Shown here piece by piece: positions 9,755 to 44,482 of a DNA stretch of 44,482 nucleotides. Under the pieces are notes generated by a model, which was not told where the DNA came from, made no database searches, and worked only from the letters and a program-made list of their open reading frames with translations. This stretch comes from an uncultured Clostridia bacterium (lineage in GTDB: Bacteria > Bacillota > Clostridia > Oscillospirales > Acutalibacteraceae): contig CANRMW010000002.1 in NCBI GenBank assembly GCA_947631835.1, positions 1-44,482 on the forward strand, in the 5' to 3' direction. Position 1 is the first letter of the stretch, and every line of letters begins with the position of its first letter. Both the position numbers and the translations under genes were made by a program.

Positions 9755-10419
9755 TCATTCCGCCGCACTTCCGAACAAGCGCTGTTCGATATTTGCGCAG
9801 AGGAAATGATAGACGGGCAGGTGCAGCTCTTGGACGAGGAAGGTCTCGCGCTCCGGCACGGCGACGCAGACGTCGCTCAGCGGGGCGAGTTTCCCGCCGC
9901 CGGCGCCGGTCAGCGAGACGACGGAGAGGCCGAGTCCCGCGCCGTTTTTGCGGCTTGCACCACGTTTTCGGAGTTCCCGGAGGTGCTGATGCACAGCAGC
10001 GCGTCGCCGGGGCCGCCAAGCGCCAGAACGCCCTGCGCGAAGACGTATTCCGGCGCGGCGTCGTTGGAAAAGGCGGTGGAGAGCGCCGTCATGCCGCAGA
10101 GGGAGACGGCGGGAAGGCCCCGCTGCAGGCTGTCGAGGTCCTGCGCCGTGAGCGCTGGGCAGCGGCGGCGCATCGCGGCGCGAAGGTCATCCGGGAGCGG
10201 ACGCTCGAGGAGGAAGCCTTTCATCAGCTCGCCGGTGATGTGGTCGCAGTCTGCGGCGCTGCCGCCGTTCCCGCAGAGCAGGAGCTTGTTCCCGGCGGCA
10301 AAGACGCCCGCGAGAAGCGACGCGGCGTTTTCGATCTCCCCGGCGCACGGCTCGAGTTTTGGGTATCGCGCGAGGAGCGCGGCGAGCGACGCTTCGGGAC
10401 GCGGTGTGTTTTGTTCCAT
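9755..10419 (-). pseudogene. SIS-domain (phosphoheptose isomerase/GmhA-like) protein with a frameshift
   Basis: LLLCGNGGSAADCDHITGELMKGF...CISTSGNSENVVQAAK, then continuation KNGAGLGLSVVSLTGAGGGKLAPLSDVCVAVP in another frame. Confidence 0.7.
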
Positions 10420-10457
10420 TTTTGTTTTCCTCCGTATTCTATGGAATCCTGCGCGGC

Positions 10458-11405
10458 TCAGAGCGCCGTGAGGACCGCGGCGTAGTCCCCGAGCGCGTCT
10501 CCGAGCGCGGCGGGGACCACCGTGCAGACCTCGGCCGCGCCGGGCAGCGCCTCCCGCCGGATCGCTTCTTCCATGGAAGGCGCGAGCAGGCGGCCGCTTC
10601 GGGCAAAGACGCTCCCGATCACGATGCGCTCCGGGTTCAAAAGGTCGATGAGGACGGCGAGCCCGCGCCCGAGCATCTCGCCGCTTTTCCGAAATACTTT
10701 GCGCGCGAAAGCGTCTCCGCGTTCGGCGGCCTCGGCGAGCGTTTTCGCGGTGCAGTCTGCGGGCAGATCCGCCCGTGCGTTGTCCTGTGCCATCTGGCGA
10801 GCGAGCCGGACAAGTCCGCCGCCGCTGCAAAAGCCCTCGAAGGAGCCGGCCTTGCCGTAGCCTTCCGGCCCGGTCTCCGCGAGGCGGATGTGGCCGCACT
10901 CTCCCGCAAAATCGTTCGTTCCGGTGTAGAGCCTGCCGCCGAGGATCAGTCCCGCGCCAAGGCCCGTGCCGAAGGTGAGAAAGAGCATGTTTTCCGTGCC
11001 GCGCCCCGCGCCGAACCGCCACTCCGCGAGCGCGCAGGCGTTCGCGTCGTTCTGCAGCTTCGCGGGCACGCCGAAGCGCTCCCGGAGCATCGCGGCGATG
11101 GGGACGCGGTCCCATCCGGGAAGGTTCGGCGGGGAAAGAACCAATCCCTCCCGGCTGTTGAGCGGGCCGCCGCAGGAGACGCCGATGCGCGCGGGCGGCG
11201 GAAAATGCGCGGCGGCCAAAAGCAGGCGGTCGAGCATTTCCTCCGGGGAGATCGAGATGTCCGTCGGGACGGTCACTTTATCTGTGATCTCGATGTGCGC
11301 CGCGCTGCCCCGCGCGGAGACGGCGGCGCATTTCGTCCCGCCGATATCGATGCCGAGAAGCTGCATCTCTTCGCGGCCATCGGAAAGCGATGTGCCCAGC
11401 GCCAT
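10458..11405 (-). CDS. ROK family sugar kinase/regulator
   Basis: LLGIDIGGTKCAAV, LFLTFGTGLGAGLILGG, GECGHIRL. Confidence 0.88.
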   Translation of the reverse strand: MALGTSLSDGREEMQLLGIDIGGTKCAAVSARGSAAHIEITDKVTVPTDISISPEEMLDRLLLAAAHFPPPARIGVSCGGPLNSREGLVLSPPNLPGWDRVPIAAMLRERFGVPAKLQNDANACALAEWRFGAGRGTENMLFLTFGTGLGAGLILGGRLYTGTNDFAGECGHIRLAETGPEGYGKAGSFEGFCSGGGLVRLARQMAQDNARADLPADCTAKTLAEAAERGDAFARKVFRKSGEMLGRGLAVLIDLLNPERIVIGSVFARSGRLLAPSMEEAIRREALPGAAEVCTVVPAALGDALGDYAAVLTAL

Positions 11406-31848: not shown

Positions 31849-32240
31849 CGCCCTTTCCCTTTCGAGCGGAAGCGGATCCGCTCGCAGTACGTTTTTTATT
31901 ATAGCGCGGCGCAGGCGCATTGTCAACGGGAGGGCGGCGGACGAAAAAGCCGTTTTTCTGGAAGTTTTACAAGTTTATCATCTCCTGAGACATACCACAG
32001 CATATAGTGATTTGAGCCGATAATACATCCGTATGTTGTGGAAACACGAACGGCCATGTTGATTTACTAAAAATTTACTAAAAACGAAATAGAGCCACAA
32101 GGCAGTATGTAAAGGGGCGAGGATGAAATTCCACGCCCCTTTTACCATATATTACTACCGAAATTCTCGAACACAAAAGTGGCAAACGTCAGCGTCCACA
32201 TCCAATGAAAATTTTTCTAGCTTTATCTGTCGAAGTGTGA

Positions 32241-37001: not shown

Positions 37002-37229
37002 TTACCCGATGCTGGGGCTCTCCATCTGAGCGTCCTCGGCTGCGTACTGTTCGTACTCTTCCGTGACCTTCCTCTTGACTTCCTCCGCGAACTCATAGAA
37101 CGCCTGATATTCCTCGGGCTTCTCGTCCTTCTGGCGGAGCAGAGCAATCTGGTCGTTGATGCTGTACTTCGCGCTGATGACGTTTCCAATCATTTCCTCG
37201 CGGGTGATTCTCGATTTTCCGTTTTCCAT
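37002..37229 (-). CDS. Small phage protein, unknown
   Basis: MENGKSRITREEMIGNVISAKYSINDQIALLRQKDEKPEEYQAFYEFAEEVKRKV; overlaps 3' end of RT gene. Confidence 0.65.
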   Translation of the reverse strand: MENGKSRITREEMIGNVISAKYSINDQIALLRQKDEKPEEYQAFYEFAEEVKRKVTEEYEQYAAEDAQMESPSIG

Positions 37230-38491
37230 TCTGGATACCTCCACTTCTTTTCCAGTTTGCATTTCGGTGGGTCGCAGTTATACAGAGAGCGGTAAAGCTC
37301 GTCCATATTTGCGACTGTTTTATACGCCCAACGCTGCAGGGCATGGCCTTTCCAAGAACTGTATGCCTTTTCGATGTCCTCCATCTGAATCCTCCCCTGC
37401 TCACGGAGCTTGAGAAGCTTCTTCATCTTGCGTCTCTGTTTCGTGACGCAATCCCGGGACAGACATCGTAAAACCTTACCCGTTTTCGTCAGACGGTGTT
37501 TGACTTTAAGATAGGTGAACCCGTGGGAGAGCTTGACAATGTGCGTCTTGCGCTCATTGACACGAATCCCATACGGTTCGCAGAATTTTTGAATCATCTT
37601 GTACGCTGTCTTTGCCTCGGACTTTGTGCGGAACAGCAGATAGCCGTCGTCCGTGTAACGCCCATAGAACCGGGCGTGCAGCGTTTGCTTGATGAAATGG
37701 TCGAGCGCGTCCGCGTAACTCACGGCTGTGATTTGAGATACCTGACTTCCAAGCCCAAGGCTCATCCCGCTGTTCTCCGCTTCGGAGAAGTTCGGCTTCT
37801 CCCTGTGCCAGTTACTACGCATGAACGGAAATCCGAACGGATGCACGAACCCGTGCAGCAACTCAAGGATACGCTTGTCGTTGAATACGTTTTCGTACAT
37901 CTTGTAGCAGATGTCGTGCAGGATGGAGTCGAAGTAACCGCTGAAGTCGAACTGCAGCACATAGCCCTCGTTGGTGCATCCGTTTTGACGGTAGAACTGC
38001 GCGAGATGCGTGTCCAGACGGTTGAGCGACCTGTCCACGCCTTTGCCCTTGATGCACGCCCCGTTGTCGTAAATCAGACCTTTGGAGAGCATAGGGACGA
38101 GGGCGTTGTCACACAGACTGCGCTGTACGACGCGCTCGGAGAAATGGACGCTGCGGATGTGGCGCTCCTTGCCGCGCTCCTGTGCGACAAATTCCACGAA
38201 CCCCTTCGATTTGTATTTTCCCGCTTCGAGACTCTTTTTCGTTGCCAAGAGATTTCGCAGCAGATTCATTTGATACCTTTGAACGCTTGCTTTCCAGCAG
38301 ACGTTCTTCCGAGACTTCTTGTTCGCAAGATACAACGCCTGTGCGCTTATGATTTCGTCGTAACAGTCATACTGCGCGTACAGGGCTTGTTTGTGCTCTT
38401 CGCGTTTCGCCTTTCTCCGCTGATACTTTTGCAGCCTGCGTCGTTCGGTCGAAGTCATCGGACGATGGATTGTTGTTTCTGAATTAACCAT
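37190..38491 (-). CDS. DGR reverse transcriptase
   Basis: RT motifs LQFDFSGYFDSILHD, SGMSLGLGSQVSQITAVSYADALDHF (DGR-type SQ motif), YTDDGYLLFR catalytic motif; next to TR/VR pair. Confidence 0.95.
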   Translation of the reverse strand: MVNSETTIHRPMTSTERRRLQKYQRRKAKREEHKQALYAQYDCYDEIISAQALYLANKKSRKNVCWKASVQRYQMNLLRNLLATKKSLEAGKYKSKGFVEFVAQERGKERHIRSVHFSERVVQRSLCDNALVPMLSKGLIYDNGACIKGKGVDRSLNRLDTHLAQFYRQNGCTNEGYVLQFDFSGYFDSILHDICYKMYENVFNDKRILELLHGFVHPFGFPFMRSNWHREKPNFSEAENSGMSLGLGSQVSQITAVSYADALDHFIKQTLHARFYGRYTDDGYLLFRTKSEAKTAYKMIQKFCEPYGIRVNERKTHIVKLSHGFTYLKVKHRLTKTGKVLRCLSRDCVTKQRRKMKKLLKLREQGRIQMEDIEKAYSSWKGHALQRWAYKTVANMDELYRSLYNCDPPKCKLEKKWRYPEWKTENRESPARK

Positions 38492-38913
38492 GATACTCCT
38501 TTCCTGAAATGAGAGCCCCGTACAGAGAGCCACGCGAGAGGTTGGTTAGGTCTCCGCGAGGCGCGTCTTTCGGAATTATCTGCGTAGTATTACCTGACCT
38601 GAAATAGACAAGGACACGCAAACTTGTCTACGAGGCACGAAAGCGTTCGTCAGAATACATCGAGGCTCCGAATTCACCTGTGGATTTCACACAGGACGGT
38701 CATGCGCTCCTTCCAAATGAAGGCATTGCGTTCGCCCACGAGGGGTTACTAGGTCGAGCCCAGCCCTTTTGGGACTGCATTGGAATCAGAGCGGCGCACG
38801 GATGTTGGTGTTCGCAGCCGAGTTGTTGTTCGCATTGCCATTGTTGTTGACATTACAAACATTCGTCGCCGACCCGTGGTGGACTGAAAGCTCCCACCAG
38901 TTCGTGCGAGCAC
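38492..38913 (-). ncRNA. DGR template RNA: TR plus structured TR-RT spacer
   Basis: TR followed (minus strand) by spacer with hairpins cctgtg/cacagg (38677-38695) and agacaag/cttgtct (38606-38629). Confidence 0.75.
38782..38913 (-). repeat. DGR template repeat (TR)
   Basis: 132-nt ungapped match to VR 39650-39781 with 12 differences, all at sense-strand A of TR. Confidence 0.95.
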
Positions 38914-38980
38914 GCCGAGAATATTAACAGCGCATAACCTTTAATTTATTTAATCATCGCTTTTTATCGCGTTGATTACC

Positions 38981-39463
38981 TTATGCTGGCGGATTGCCAT
39001 CCGAGGGCGGATTACCGTCTGCCGTCGGACTGCCGTTCTCTGAAGGATTGCCGTTTGCGGGCATGACTTTGTTGTTGCCGCTTTTACGCCATCCTTTGAG
39101 AAGACGCTCCTCGTCTAAGAGCAGTTTCGTTATGGGCATGAGTTTGTCTGCGTTCAGCTCAAGCGTCGTCAGCAAATACTGGAGCAACTGCAAAAGCTGG
39201 TTCACGTTGCCGATGGCGAGATTCTGAAAATCTCGCCTGAATTCAAGCTCGTGTTCCGTAGTGGGGTAAACCGTATTCGCCATCGTGATATTGTCGAACA
39301 ACTCACAGACCTTTGCGATAATTGGAAACGAGAAGACTGGACGCCAACGTTTCGGGACATTGTTTTCGTTCATAACGAACCTCGTCAGTTCTGCGCGGAG
39401 CGCAACGGCGTTGTTGTAGAACTCAAGCTCGCTCAAACTGCGTTTGTTTTTGAGTACGCTCAT
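38981..39463 (-). CDS. avd: Avd-like DGR accessory protein (four-helix bundle) with low-complexity Asn/Gly/Pro tail
   Basis: LSELEFYNNAVALRAELTRF...FRRDFQNLAIGNVNQLLQLLQYLLTTLE...LLLDEERLLKGWRKS, located between VR gene and TR. Confidence 0.75.
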   Translation of the reverse strand: MSVLKNKRSLSELEFYNNAVALRAELTRFVMNENNVPKRWRPVFSFPIIAKVCELFDNITMANTVYPTTEHELEFRRDFQNLAIGNVNQLLQLLQYLLTTLELNADKLMPITKLLLDEERLLKGWRKSGNNKVMPANGNPSENGSPTADGNPPSDGNPPA

Positions 39464-39599
39464 TTTGTACAGCTCCTTTCACTGCATTAAATTTATTATG
39501 CAAAGCACTTTCCTTGTGTTGCACCTCTAACCGCAGGGGTGGTCTGTGTGAAAATGCTCCACTGTTTTGGTTCTTTGGTTAATGTGTATACTCGGCGGC

Positions 39600-39618
39600 G
39601 CACCCCATAAAGGGGTGC
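39600..39618. other. Hairpin/cruciform downstream of VR (DGR target-site structure)
   Basis: gcacccc-ataaa-ggggtgc, 7 bp, 32 nt past VR end, no T tract on either side. Confidence 0.6.
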
Positions 39619-39638
39619 TTGCCTCGTGTTAGCCTAGA

Positions 39639-40418
39639 TTAACCGATTCGGAAGCAGAGCGGCGCACGGATGGGGGTGTACGCAGCCGAGATGGTGGCCG
39701 CATTGCCATTGGTGCTGACATAACAAACATTCGTCGCCGACCCGTGGTGGACTGAAAGCTCCCACCAGTCCGTGCGAGCACCACCGTTTCCATCACCCTT
39801 GATGAGGTGCTTAGAACCGCCAATGAAAATCGGATACTGAATCGCCTTGCCGGAATAGGTGTCGCTCTCGTTGACGAGAACATCCGCGCTCTTCAGCTTG
39901 CGCTTATACTGCACGATGATTTCCTGACCGGCCTGAACGTCCTCGCTGAACTCAAGCTCCTTGGTGAGCGGGTCGTACTTGAACTTGCCCTGCTCCGCAG
40001 ACTCGTCCTGCTCCAGCGCCTTGTCCGGCGTACCGTCTTTCGCCTTGAGACGGAGAGAGACAATCTCAGCGCCCGTAGTGCCGACAGCCTTAAAGCGGGT
40101 ATTGGCCTTGTGAGACTCGTCCACCTCAAGGTAATCCGTCCACATGACGTCGGTAGCCTTCGTCTCAAACTTGCTGCCGGTCTGGGACTCCATCAGACCG
40201 CCGGAGATAATGCCGCTCGCACCGCTGATGGTGACGCCCTTGTTACGCTTCAGGTTCGCAAGCTTTCTGCCCTGCTTACCAGTAATCTCAGAAGTCTCCT
40301 GCGTGTTTGCAATCGAGACGTTCTGCAGCTCGTCAAGCGTGTACAGATAGTCACCAGTAGCAACATCAAACGCAGTAAGAGTCTCAATACTGGTGATGAG
40401 GATATCACTAATGTTCAT
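39639..40418 (-). CDS. DGR target: phage structural-like N-terminus with C-terminal CLec-like variable domain
   Basis: RBS GGAGG before MNISDILITS; C-term GGARTDWWELSVHHGSATNVCYVSTNGNAATISAAYTPIRAPLCFRIG encoded by VR. Confidence 0.88.
   Translation of the reverse strand: MNISDILITSIETLTAFDVATGDYLYTLDELQNVSIANTQETSEITGKQGRKLANLKRNKGVTISGASGIISGGLMESQTGSKFETKATDVMWTDYLEVDESHKANTRFKAVGTTGAEIVSLRLKAKDGTPDKALEQDESAEQGKFKYDPLTKELEFSEDVQAGQEIIVQYKRKLKSADVLVNESDTYSGKAIQYPIFIGGSKHLIKGDGNGGARTDWWELSVHHGSATNVCYVSTNGNAATISAAYTPIRAPLCFRIG
39650..39781 (-). repeat. DGR variable repeat (VR)
   Basis: See TR; codes for last residues of target protein. Confidence 0.95.
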
Positions 40419-40441
40419 AGACTTTTCCTCCATTTTTATAC

Positions 40442-40669
40442 TCGTTCGACTCTGAAGTCGCTGTTTACCTCTTTGAAAGAGAAGAGGACGCAGTAAAGTT
40501 CCTGTTCGATTCCTATTCCGAGGAACTGCGGATTGATTTGTACGAGAACGGATGGAACTCTGTTGGCGAGATTTCGCCGGACGGATTGTACGCGAAAATC
40601 ACAACGTCCTTCCCGGACGGCGAAGACGTTACCGAGATGTACGTTGGCACGATTTACAGCAGAGAGTAA
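40442..40669 (+). pseudogene. ORF fragment lacking a start codon
   Basis: SFDSEVAVYLFEREEDAVKFLFDSYSEELRIDLYENGWNSVGEISPDGLYAKITTSFPDGEDVTEMYVGTIYSRE*; no ATG/GTG upstream before in-frame stop. Confidence 0.35.
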
Positions 40670-40754
40670 ATGTGTTAGACTTTTGTGATGATGCGGTACG
40701 AAATGTGCTGGATTTCTGTGAGGAATTCTTCGATTGGAGGTGACCCGAGTGCTT

Positions 40755-41282
40755 ATGGAGACAAAAGACATGGCTGATATGTACTTTAAGGTGCATAAGC
40801 TTGTTTATCTAACGTGGGTTGGAGATATTCCAGACGGAATGCAAATCAACCATCTGGATGACGATAAGAATAATAACTGCGTGTCTAACCTTTACGCCGG
40901 GACGCAAACGGAGAATATTTCGGACTGTGTTGCCAACTCACATAGAGTTGGGCACATACAGTCGTTGACCGTTCTTGATATGTCTACTGGAGAAATTATT
41001 GAATTTCCATCTGTTGTAGACTTCATCAAGTATACTGGACATCCGTCTCAAAACGGTTCTTTGAGCAAGATGATGCATAGAAAGTGGTTCACAGAGAGGT
41101 TTGAAATTATTGAGCGGAAAGGTGTAACGACTATCGAAAGCTATAAATCCATAAGAGCTCGATATGCGAGCGGGGTTGAAAATAAGGCTATGCACGAAGC
41201 GAGTAGAGTAGGACAGAGTTTGTCACTGTCCGAAGCGCAAGGGACGTGCGAAAGCGCGTCAAGAGATAGTCTGCGCGGGTAG
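40755..41282 (+). CDS. HNH endonuclease (intron/homing type)
   Basis: VHKLVYLTWVGDIPDGMQINHLDDDKNNNCVSNLYAGTQTENISDCVANSHRVG; RBS ggaggtga. Confidence 0.75.
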   Translation: METKDMADMYFKVHKLVYLTWVGDIPDGMQINHLDDDKNNNCVSNLYAGTQTENISDCVANSHRVGHIQSLTVLDMSTGEIIEFPSVVDFIKYTGHPSQNGSLSKMMHRKWFTERFEIIERKGVTTIESYKSIRARYASGVENKAMHEASRVGQSLSLSEAQGTCESASRDSLRG

Positions 41283-41295
41283 GAATATCCGTGTG
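41120..41295 (+). ncRNA. Candidate group I intron 3' core
   Basis: GACGUGC-GAAA-GCGCGUC then AAGAGAUAGUCU (S-element/P7-like), P9-like GCGCGG/CCGUGU, ends ...GUGUG before TCAATCAG (nrdD FNQG codons). Confidence 0.5.
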
Positions 41296-42212
41296 TCAAT
41301 CAGGGGGTTGTAACTATCAATCTCCCGGACGTTGGCCTCTCAGCCAACAAGGATTTTGACCTGTTCTGGAAAATCTTTGATGAACGTTTGGAGCTCTGTC
41401 ATAGAGCGCTGCGTCTCCGTCACGAGCGTCTCCTTGGAACGCTCTCGGACGCCTCTCCGATTCACTGGCAGTATGGTGCTCTTGCCAGATTGAAGAAGGG
41501 TGAGACGATTGACAAGCTGCTATACGGCGGGTACTCCACACTCTCGCTCGGCTATGCTGGGCTGTATGAGTGCGTCAAAGCCATGACGGGTAGGAGCCAT
41601 ACGGAAGATGGCGGCAAGGAGTTTGCGCTTGACGTTATGAGATATATGAACGACAAGTGTAAGCAGTGGAAGGCCGCTGAGAACATCGACTACTCCCTTT
41701 ATGGAACGCCAATCGAATCGACGACATACAAGTTTGCGAAGTGTCTCCAGAAACGATTCGGTGTGATTGAGGGGATTACCGATAAGGGTTACATCACGAA
41801 CTCCTATCATGTCCATGTAACCGAAAAGATTGATGCGTTCGATAAGTTGAATTTTGAAGCTGAGTTCCAGCTTCTCAGTCCGGGCGGTGCAATCTCGTAC
41901 ATTGAAACCGCGAACCTGACAAACAACGTAGAGGCGGTTTTGGCTGTCATCCAGTACATTTACGAGCACATTATGTACGCGGAACTCAATACCAAATCGG
42001 ACTTTTGTCAAGAGTGCGGATACGATGGAGAAATCCAAATCGTAGAAAATGAAGACGGGAAGCTCATCTGGGAATGCCCGAATTGCGGGAACAGAAACAA
42101 ATCCAAGATGAATATCGCCCGTCGCACTTGTGGTTATATTGGTACAAACGATTGGAACCAAGGACGCACGCAAGAAATCAAGGAACGGTATGTACACTTA
42201 GGCGGTGATTGA
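41296..42212 (+). CDS. nrdD: Anaerobic ribonucleoside-triphosphate reductase, C-terminal part (5' exon not in window)
   Basis: NQGVVTINLPDVGLSANKDFDLFWKIFDERLELCHRAL...SYHVHVTEKIDAFDKL...CQECGYDGEI...CPNCGNRN...CGYIGTNDWNQGRTQEIKERY. Confidence 0.85.
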
Positions 42213-44419: not shown

Positions 44420-44482
44420 GTGAATAGTATTCCTTCGTACCAGAGACTTTGTATGACGATTGAAGAAGCAGCCGAGTATTCG
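44420..44482 (+). CDS. Possible excisionase (Tn916 Xis-like) start, truncated by window edge
   Basis: MNSIPSYQRLCMTIEEAAEYS... Confidence 0.4.
   Translation, partial: MNSIPSYQRLCMTIEEAAEYS

Follow-up and report, generated by a model that had tools for sequence, protein, structure and literature searches.

A diversity-generating retroelement with a chimeric target gene, probably in a damaged prophage, of an uncultured Clostridia bacterium

Described systems and how this locus compares

Diversity-generating retroelements (DGRs) are well known in gut phages, and the finding of another one is therefore routine. In the normal process, as it may be pictured from Bordetella phage BPP-1, the RNA containing the repeat TR would be bound by the accessory protein Avd and the reverse transcriptase (RT) and copied with errors at adenines; the cDNA would then replace the repeat VR beside a hairpin, changing the receptor-contacting residues of a tail protein. 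We infer from BPP-1 that mutagenic homing follows the same course at the locus described here, which lies toward the end of the window, the whole 44,482-nt stretch of DNA that was analyzed. The locus shares with BPP-1 the arrangement of its parts (target, avd, TR and RT, all on one strand), TR/VR differences that are directed to adenines, and a hairpin after VR. However, the two RTs are only ~27% identical, the hairpin loop is GAAA in BPP-1 and a 5-nt TTTAT in the window, and the window target, unlike that of BPP-1, is broken.

Roseburia phage Shimadzu (LR596903) has an RT that is 40% and an Avd that is 39% identical to those of the window, and shares the RT-2 RNA and the module at the VR end of the target; its target is intact, a 431-aa tail fibre with a DUF6273 domain, whereas the window target is broken. 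In gut prophages of Faecalibacterium, too, VR lies at the C-terminal end of a DUF6273 domain of the DGR target (PMC11792537); there the domain is whole, whereas the window keeps the domain end alone. The closest DGRs with a readable target are loci L092-L094 and L173-L183, from IMG/VR and GTDB. Their RTs are 52-59% identical to the window RT, and they have the same VR module, RT-2 RNA and hairpin, but their targets are intact at ~295 aa and their VR varies between samples. For the surrounding phage genes the useful comparison is G572 (IMGVR_UViG_2921473944_000002), a 117-kb sequence with an integrase at one end, whose products are 63% (tail-tube-like protein), 72% (nrdG), 70% (PTH2) and 70% (dUTPase) identical to those of the window. 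Its lysis genes adjoin a DGR, as they do in the window; it differs in having an intact nrdD, an intact DGR target of 310 aa and an RT that is only 33% identical.

The DGR cassette

The cassette consists of the following features.

37190-38491, minus strand: DGR reverse transcriptase, 433 aa (phrog_1423, Pfam RVT_1, tree placement)
38493-38763, minus strand: RT-2 RNA (Rfam RF03077) between TR and RT, 78.2 bits
38782-38913, minus strand: TR, with 33 adenines in 132 nt
38981-39463, minus strand: Avd accessory protein, 160 aa (phrog_3206)
39600-39618, minus strand: GC-rich hairpin GCACCCC-TTTAT-GGGGTGC, 7-bp stem, 31 nt after VR
39650-39781, minus strand: VR, 3'-terminal in the target ORF; it differs from TR at 12 positions, each of them an A in TR
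40418-39639, minus strand: target ORF, starting with ATG at 40418 and with GGAGGA upstream

The minus-strand order VR target, Avd-like gene, TR, RT that an earlier note had proposed from the letters is thus the order found (40418-39639, 39463-38981, TR, 38491-37190), and its coordinates for a gapless, adenine-only TR/VR pair hold as well: over 132 nt there are no gaps and 12 substitutions (A>C 6, A>G 3, A>T 3), all 12 at sense-strand adenines of TR, with a hypergeometric probability of 1.0e-8 given 33 adenines in 132 nt. A third copy of TR was sought across the genome assembly and not found. TR and VR have CCGTGCGCCGCTCTG in common at the 3' end of VR, an IMH-like candidate that is not purely G/C. 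The adenine signature by itself is no proof of a working DGR system.

The RT matches phrog_1423 (E 9.5e-77), Pfam RVT_1 and the solved DGR-type RT 8ub7, whose chain is named 'Reverse transcriptase' (E 5.9e-20). The motifs LGLGSQVSQ (of the GxxxSQ type) and YTDD, both named in the earlier note, are seen in it. In a 22-row tree it falls inside the DGR clade, nine rows (support 100/100) that include the RT of phage Shimadzu and several other DGR RTs; an RT placed outside this clade, which the earlier note would have taken as a refutation, is thus not what the tree gives. Its start is more likely the ATG at 38491 than the GTG upstream at 38533. Avd matches phrog_3206, 'Avd protein of DGR' (E 2.2e-6). 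The RT-2 RNA scores well above the Rfam gathering score of 40 and is found also in Shimadzu, in L031 and L005, and in all 11 further RT-relative loci scanned; scans of G572, L004 and L006 gave no match. It lies between TR and RT in L034, L031, L005, L172, L173, L177, L179, L180, L182-L185, L092 and L093, and because it has this position in nearly all DGRs of the clade, the RT-2 family probably represents the structured 3' portion of the DGR RNA. The hairpin at 39600-39618 may form a DNA cruciform at the target site. The RT clade, Avd, the adenine-only differences, the RT-2 RNA and the hairpin after VR agree, and the element is a real DGR, as had been claimed. Since RT, Avd, TR, RT-2 RNA, VR and hairpin are intact, VR may still be rewritten.

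With all cassette parts present and in the order of BPP-1, one might take the locus for a common DGR, complete as the earlier note had it, whose target is a common tail fibre. Residues 1-190 of the target do not, however, come from a canonical target, and the comparison of targets that follows contradicts this reading and leaves it hardly credible.

A target gene of two parts

The target ORF divides into two segments.

39639-39848, minus strand: end module, which holds VR and corresponds to the final 70 residues of canonical DGR targets
39849-40418, minus strand: tail-tube-like N-part, the first 190 residues, fused in frame to the end module

A Pfam search with the whole target ORF gave no match. 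Its last 70 residues match residues 225-294 of the ~295-aa canonical targets (43 of 70 identical to that of L092); among 15 DGR-relative loci the canonical targets are ~295 aa long, and in the seven of them that were aligned the match to the window ORF is limited to this end stretch. Five IMG/VR phages and one genome have a protein of 262-269 aa to which the N-part is 56-64% identical, and a further genome, G515, has a homologue (E 3.5e-70). The seven homologues are full-length proteins of 262-272 aa with a conserved C-terminus, none of them with a VR. By sequence comparison, the predicted product of the target ORF is thus a chimera of the N-terminus of a tail-tube-like protein and the C-terminus of a canonical DGR target, joined in frame at residue 190 (~39848).

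What the N-part is can be stated less firmly. Its PHROG family bears the name 'virion structural protein'. The best PDB fold matches are tail-tube proteins, although these are weak and come from a low-confidence model; the AlphaFold models were built from few aligned sequences and reach a mean pLDDT of 44-49, so that no firm claim about the fold is made. A tail-tube gene usually lies after the connector genes and before the tape measure. In L035, L036 and L040 the tube-like gene follows the capsid and connector genes and precedes the tape measure. The source of the N-part is a tail protein of 264 residues, probably the tail tube.

The target gene looks like two unrelated phage tail genes joined by accident, whether in a prophage that has been damaged or in a contig that was misjoined. 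Both parts of the fusion were sought together in the loci gathered for the target comparison and were found in none, and GTDB genomes scanned with the fused protein yielded no relative. The C-type-lectin-like variable domain is not whole in the window target, which keeps the last 70 residues of the canonical one. Because it is missing the tube protein's C-terminal part as well as ~225 residues of the target, the fused product is probably not a working receptor-binding protein.

The notion that the fusion is functional, the N-part of a tail-tube protein having been captured as a virion anchor that displays a short hypervariable tail, has in its favour that the ORF is in frame, has its own ribosome-binding site and adjoins an intact DGR, with VR-TR differences confined to adenines. 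But half of each source protein is gone, the C-type-lectin-like domain (the DUF6273 domain in Shimadzu, residues 266-429) is reduced to its last part, no other sampled locus has the fusion, and the tail genes are absent; we regard it as very improbable. If it were true, it would constitute a target type not found in the literature examined: a tail-tube DGR target was sought there, and the paper found describes targets of other kinds. An automatic DGR finder would present this fused tail gene as a target of a new class, but it is most likely the product of a deletion or of the assembly.

Deletion or misassembly

The DGR is flanked by phage genes on both sides.

35197-34841, minus strand: holin, downstream of the DGR
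36950-35265, minus strand: CHAP-GH25-LysM endolysin, downstream of the DGR
40734-41282, plus strand: HNH endonuclease (Pfam HNH_3, E 2.6e-10)
41286-42212, plus strand: C-terminal half of nrdD, residues 417-740 of its G572 relative

Host synteny with a same-genus genome stops at 31930 and phage lysis, DGR and nucleotide-metabolism genes come after it, which supports the earlier assignment to a prophage, although no integrase was found on the contig up to its end at 44482. The description of the DGR as complete is not borne out, the target being chimeric, the prophage core missing from the contig and nrdD truncated. The HNH gene sits in what looks like the 3' portion of a group I intron, whose 'AAGAGATAGTC' core was read by eye, and the gene together with this likely 3' end (40734-41290) directly precedes the C-terminal half of nrdD. 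That fragment is ~84-85% identical to residues 417-740 of G572 NrdD. The first 416 residues of NrdD are present in 33 of 33 relatives among the matches listed; across the window's own assembly these 416 residues have no phage-like match, the matches being to other reductases at 27-31% identity, and a search of the whole assembly for a 5' exon of the intron found none. Capsid protein, tape measure and the tail-protein C-terminus were likewise sought in the genome and not found, with a relative's proteins as queries, which diverged genes may escape. Between the target ORF and the HNH gene lies a plus-strand frame (40436-40666, 77 residues) that is protein-like, has no early start codon and sets in where the tail-protein fragment stops; it may be a truncated gene, but no homologue of it was found. 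The terminase on G000 contig C83 was considered as a piece of this phage and rejected, none of the contig's frames matching the DNA of relatives. In L276, a relative, nrdD has a gap of ~1.1 kb close to the same residue.

In G572 the tube-like gene and the DGR target are on one strand, ~21 kb apart; the order is lysis genes, DGR, tail genes, tube-like gene, with nrdD, nrdG, PTH2 and dUTPase at the opposite end. The window resembles the two arms of such a phage joined, with the intervening part gone. The most likely cause would be the loss of ~20 kb of tail genes between the tube-like gene and the target, and another loss that extends as far as mid-nrdD; loss of the prophage core by internal deletion would account at once for the chimeric target, the truncated nrdD and the missing structural genes. 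We consider it probable that this is a real, recently active DGR in a damaged prophage, its target broken by large internal deletions. To be counted against deletion are the joint, which is in frame, and the RT, Avd, lysis genes, nrdG and dUTPase, which are without decay.

The main rival to deletion, a misassembled contig, also accounts for the observations. Pieces of one or more phages would have been joined near 39848, near 40433 and to the left of 40734, and the real phage would have an intact canonical target and an ordinary, complete DGR. Three discontinuities inside ~900 bp of a 218-contig assembly, among coding genes that look undamaged, speak for it, and the VR of the DGR contig L031, of the same genus, is likewise interrupted by an assembly gap. 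Yet several joints in one short stretch would need several independent errors, repeats sought at the joints were not found, and the tail-protein part is single-copy in the genome. On balance misassembly is the somewhat unlikely explanation and internal deletion the preferred one.

Hairpin loops after VR

The published hairpin loop of phage DGRs is a 4-nt GRNA (PMC3240598), from which the TTTAT of the window departs. Among 91 distinct TR/VR pairs of loci L092-L251, surveyed for a stem of at least 7 bp no farther than 70 nt after VR, 69 have a hairpin after VR; five were found after TR and four before VR. Loops of 5 nt make up 48 of the 69 (CTTGT 24, TTTAT 7, CATGT 5, TATAT 3), on stems that vary. 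This loop class may already be in the literature on DGR cruciforms. For this large gut clade two facts are of use: the loop after VR is mostly of 5 nt, and the RT-2 RNA is a regular part of the cassette.

Activity in relatives

The DGR lineage is active in relatives of the window element. The phage sequences L173, L175 and L176, each from a different sample, are nearly identical: ~5.3 kb outside VR holds no differences, whereas VR has 16-18, of which at most one is not at a TR adenine. L092 and L094 differ at 23 positions of VR, all adenines, and nowhere outside VR; L180 and L181 have 15 of 16 VR differences at TR adenines, and the VRs of L177 and L178 are identical. When viral contigs were scanned with the RT as a single protein and with an exact pattern of the TR core, no close copy turned up; an alignment scan did recover relatives.

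Several of these relatives have properties of their own. L092 and L094, whose DGR regions are identical except in VR, come from water deer, in MAGs labelled Mailhella and Selenomonas; they are probably one phage binned into two hosts. The closest relative by RT (64%), L172:1-4566, has two tandem Avd-RT pairs, each with its own RT-2 RNA. L031, on contig C4 of the same-genus genome G201, is a second DGR, from another species of the genus and with a different target N-part. Downstream of the DGR of L180, at 10315-10720, lie two type II hammerhead ribozymes ~340 nt apart.
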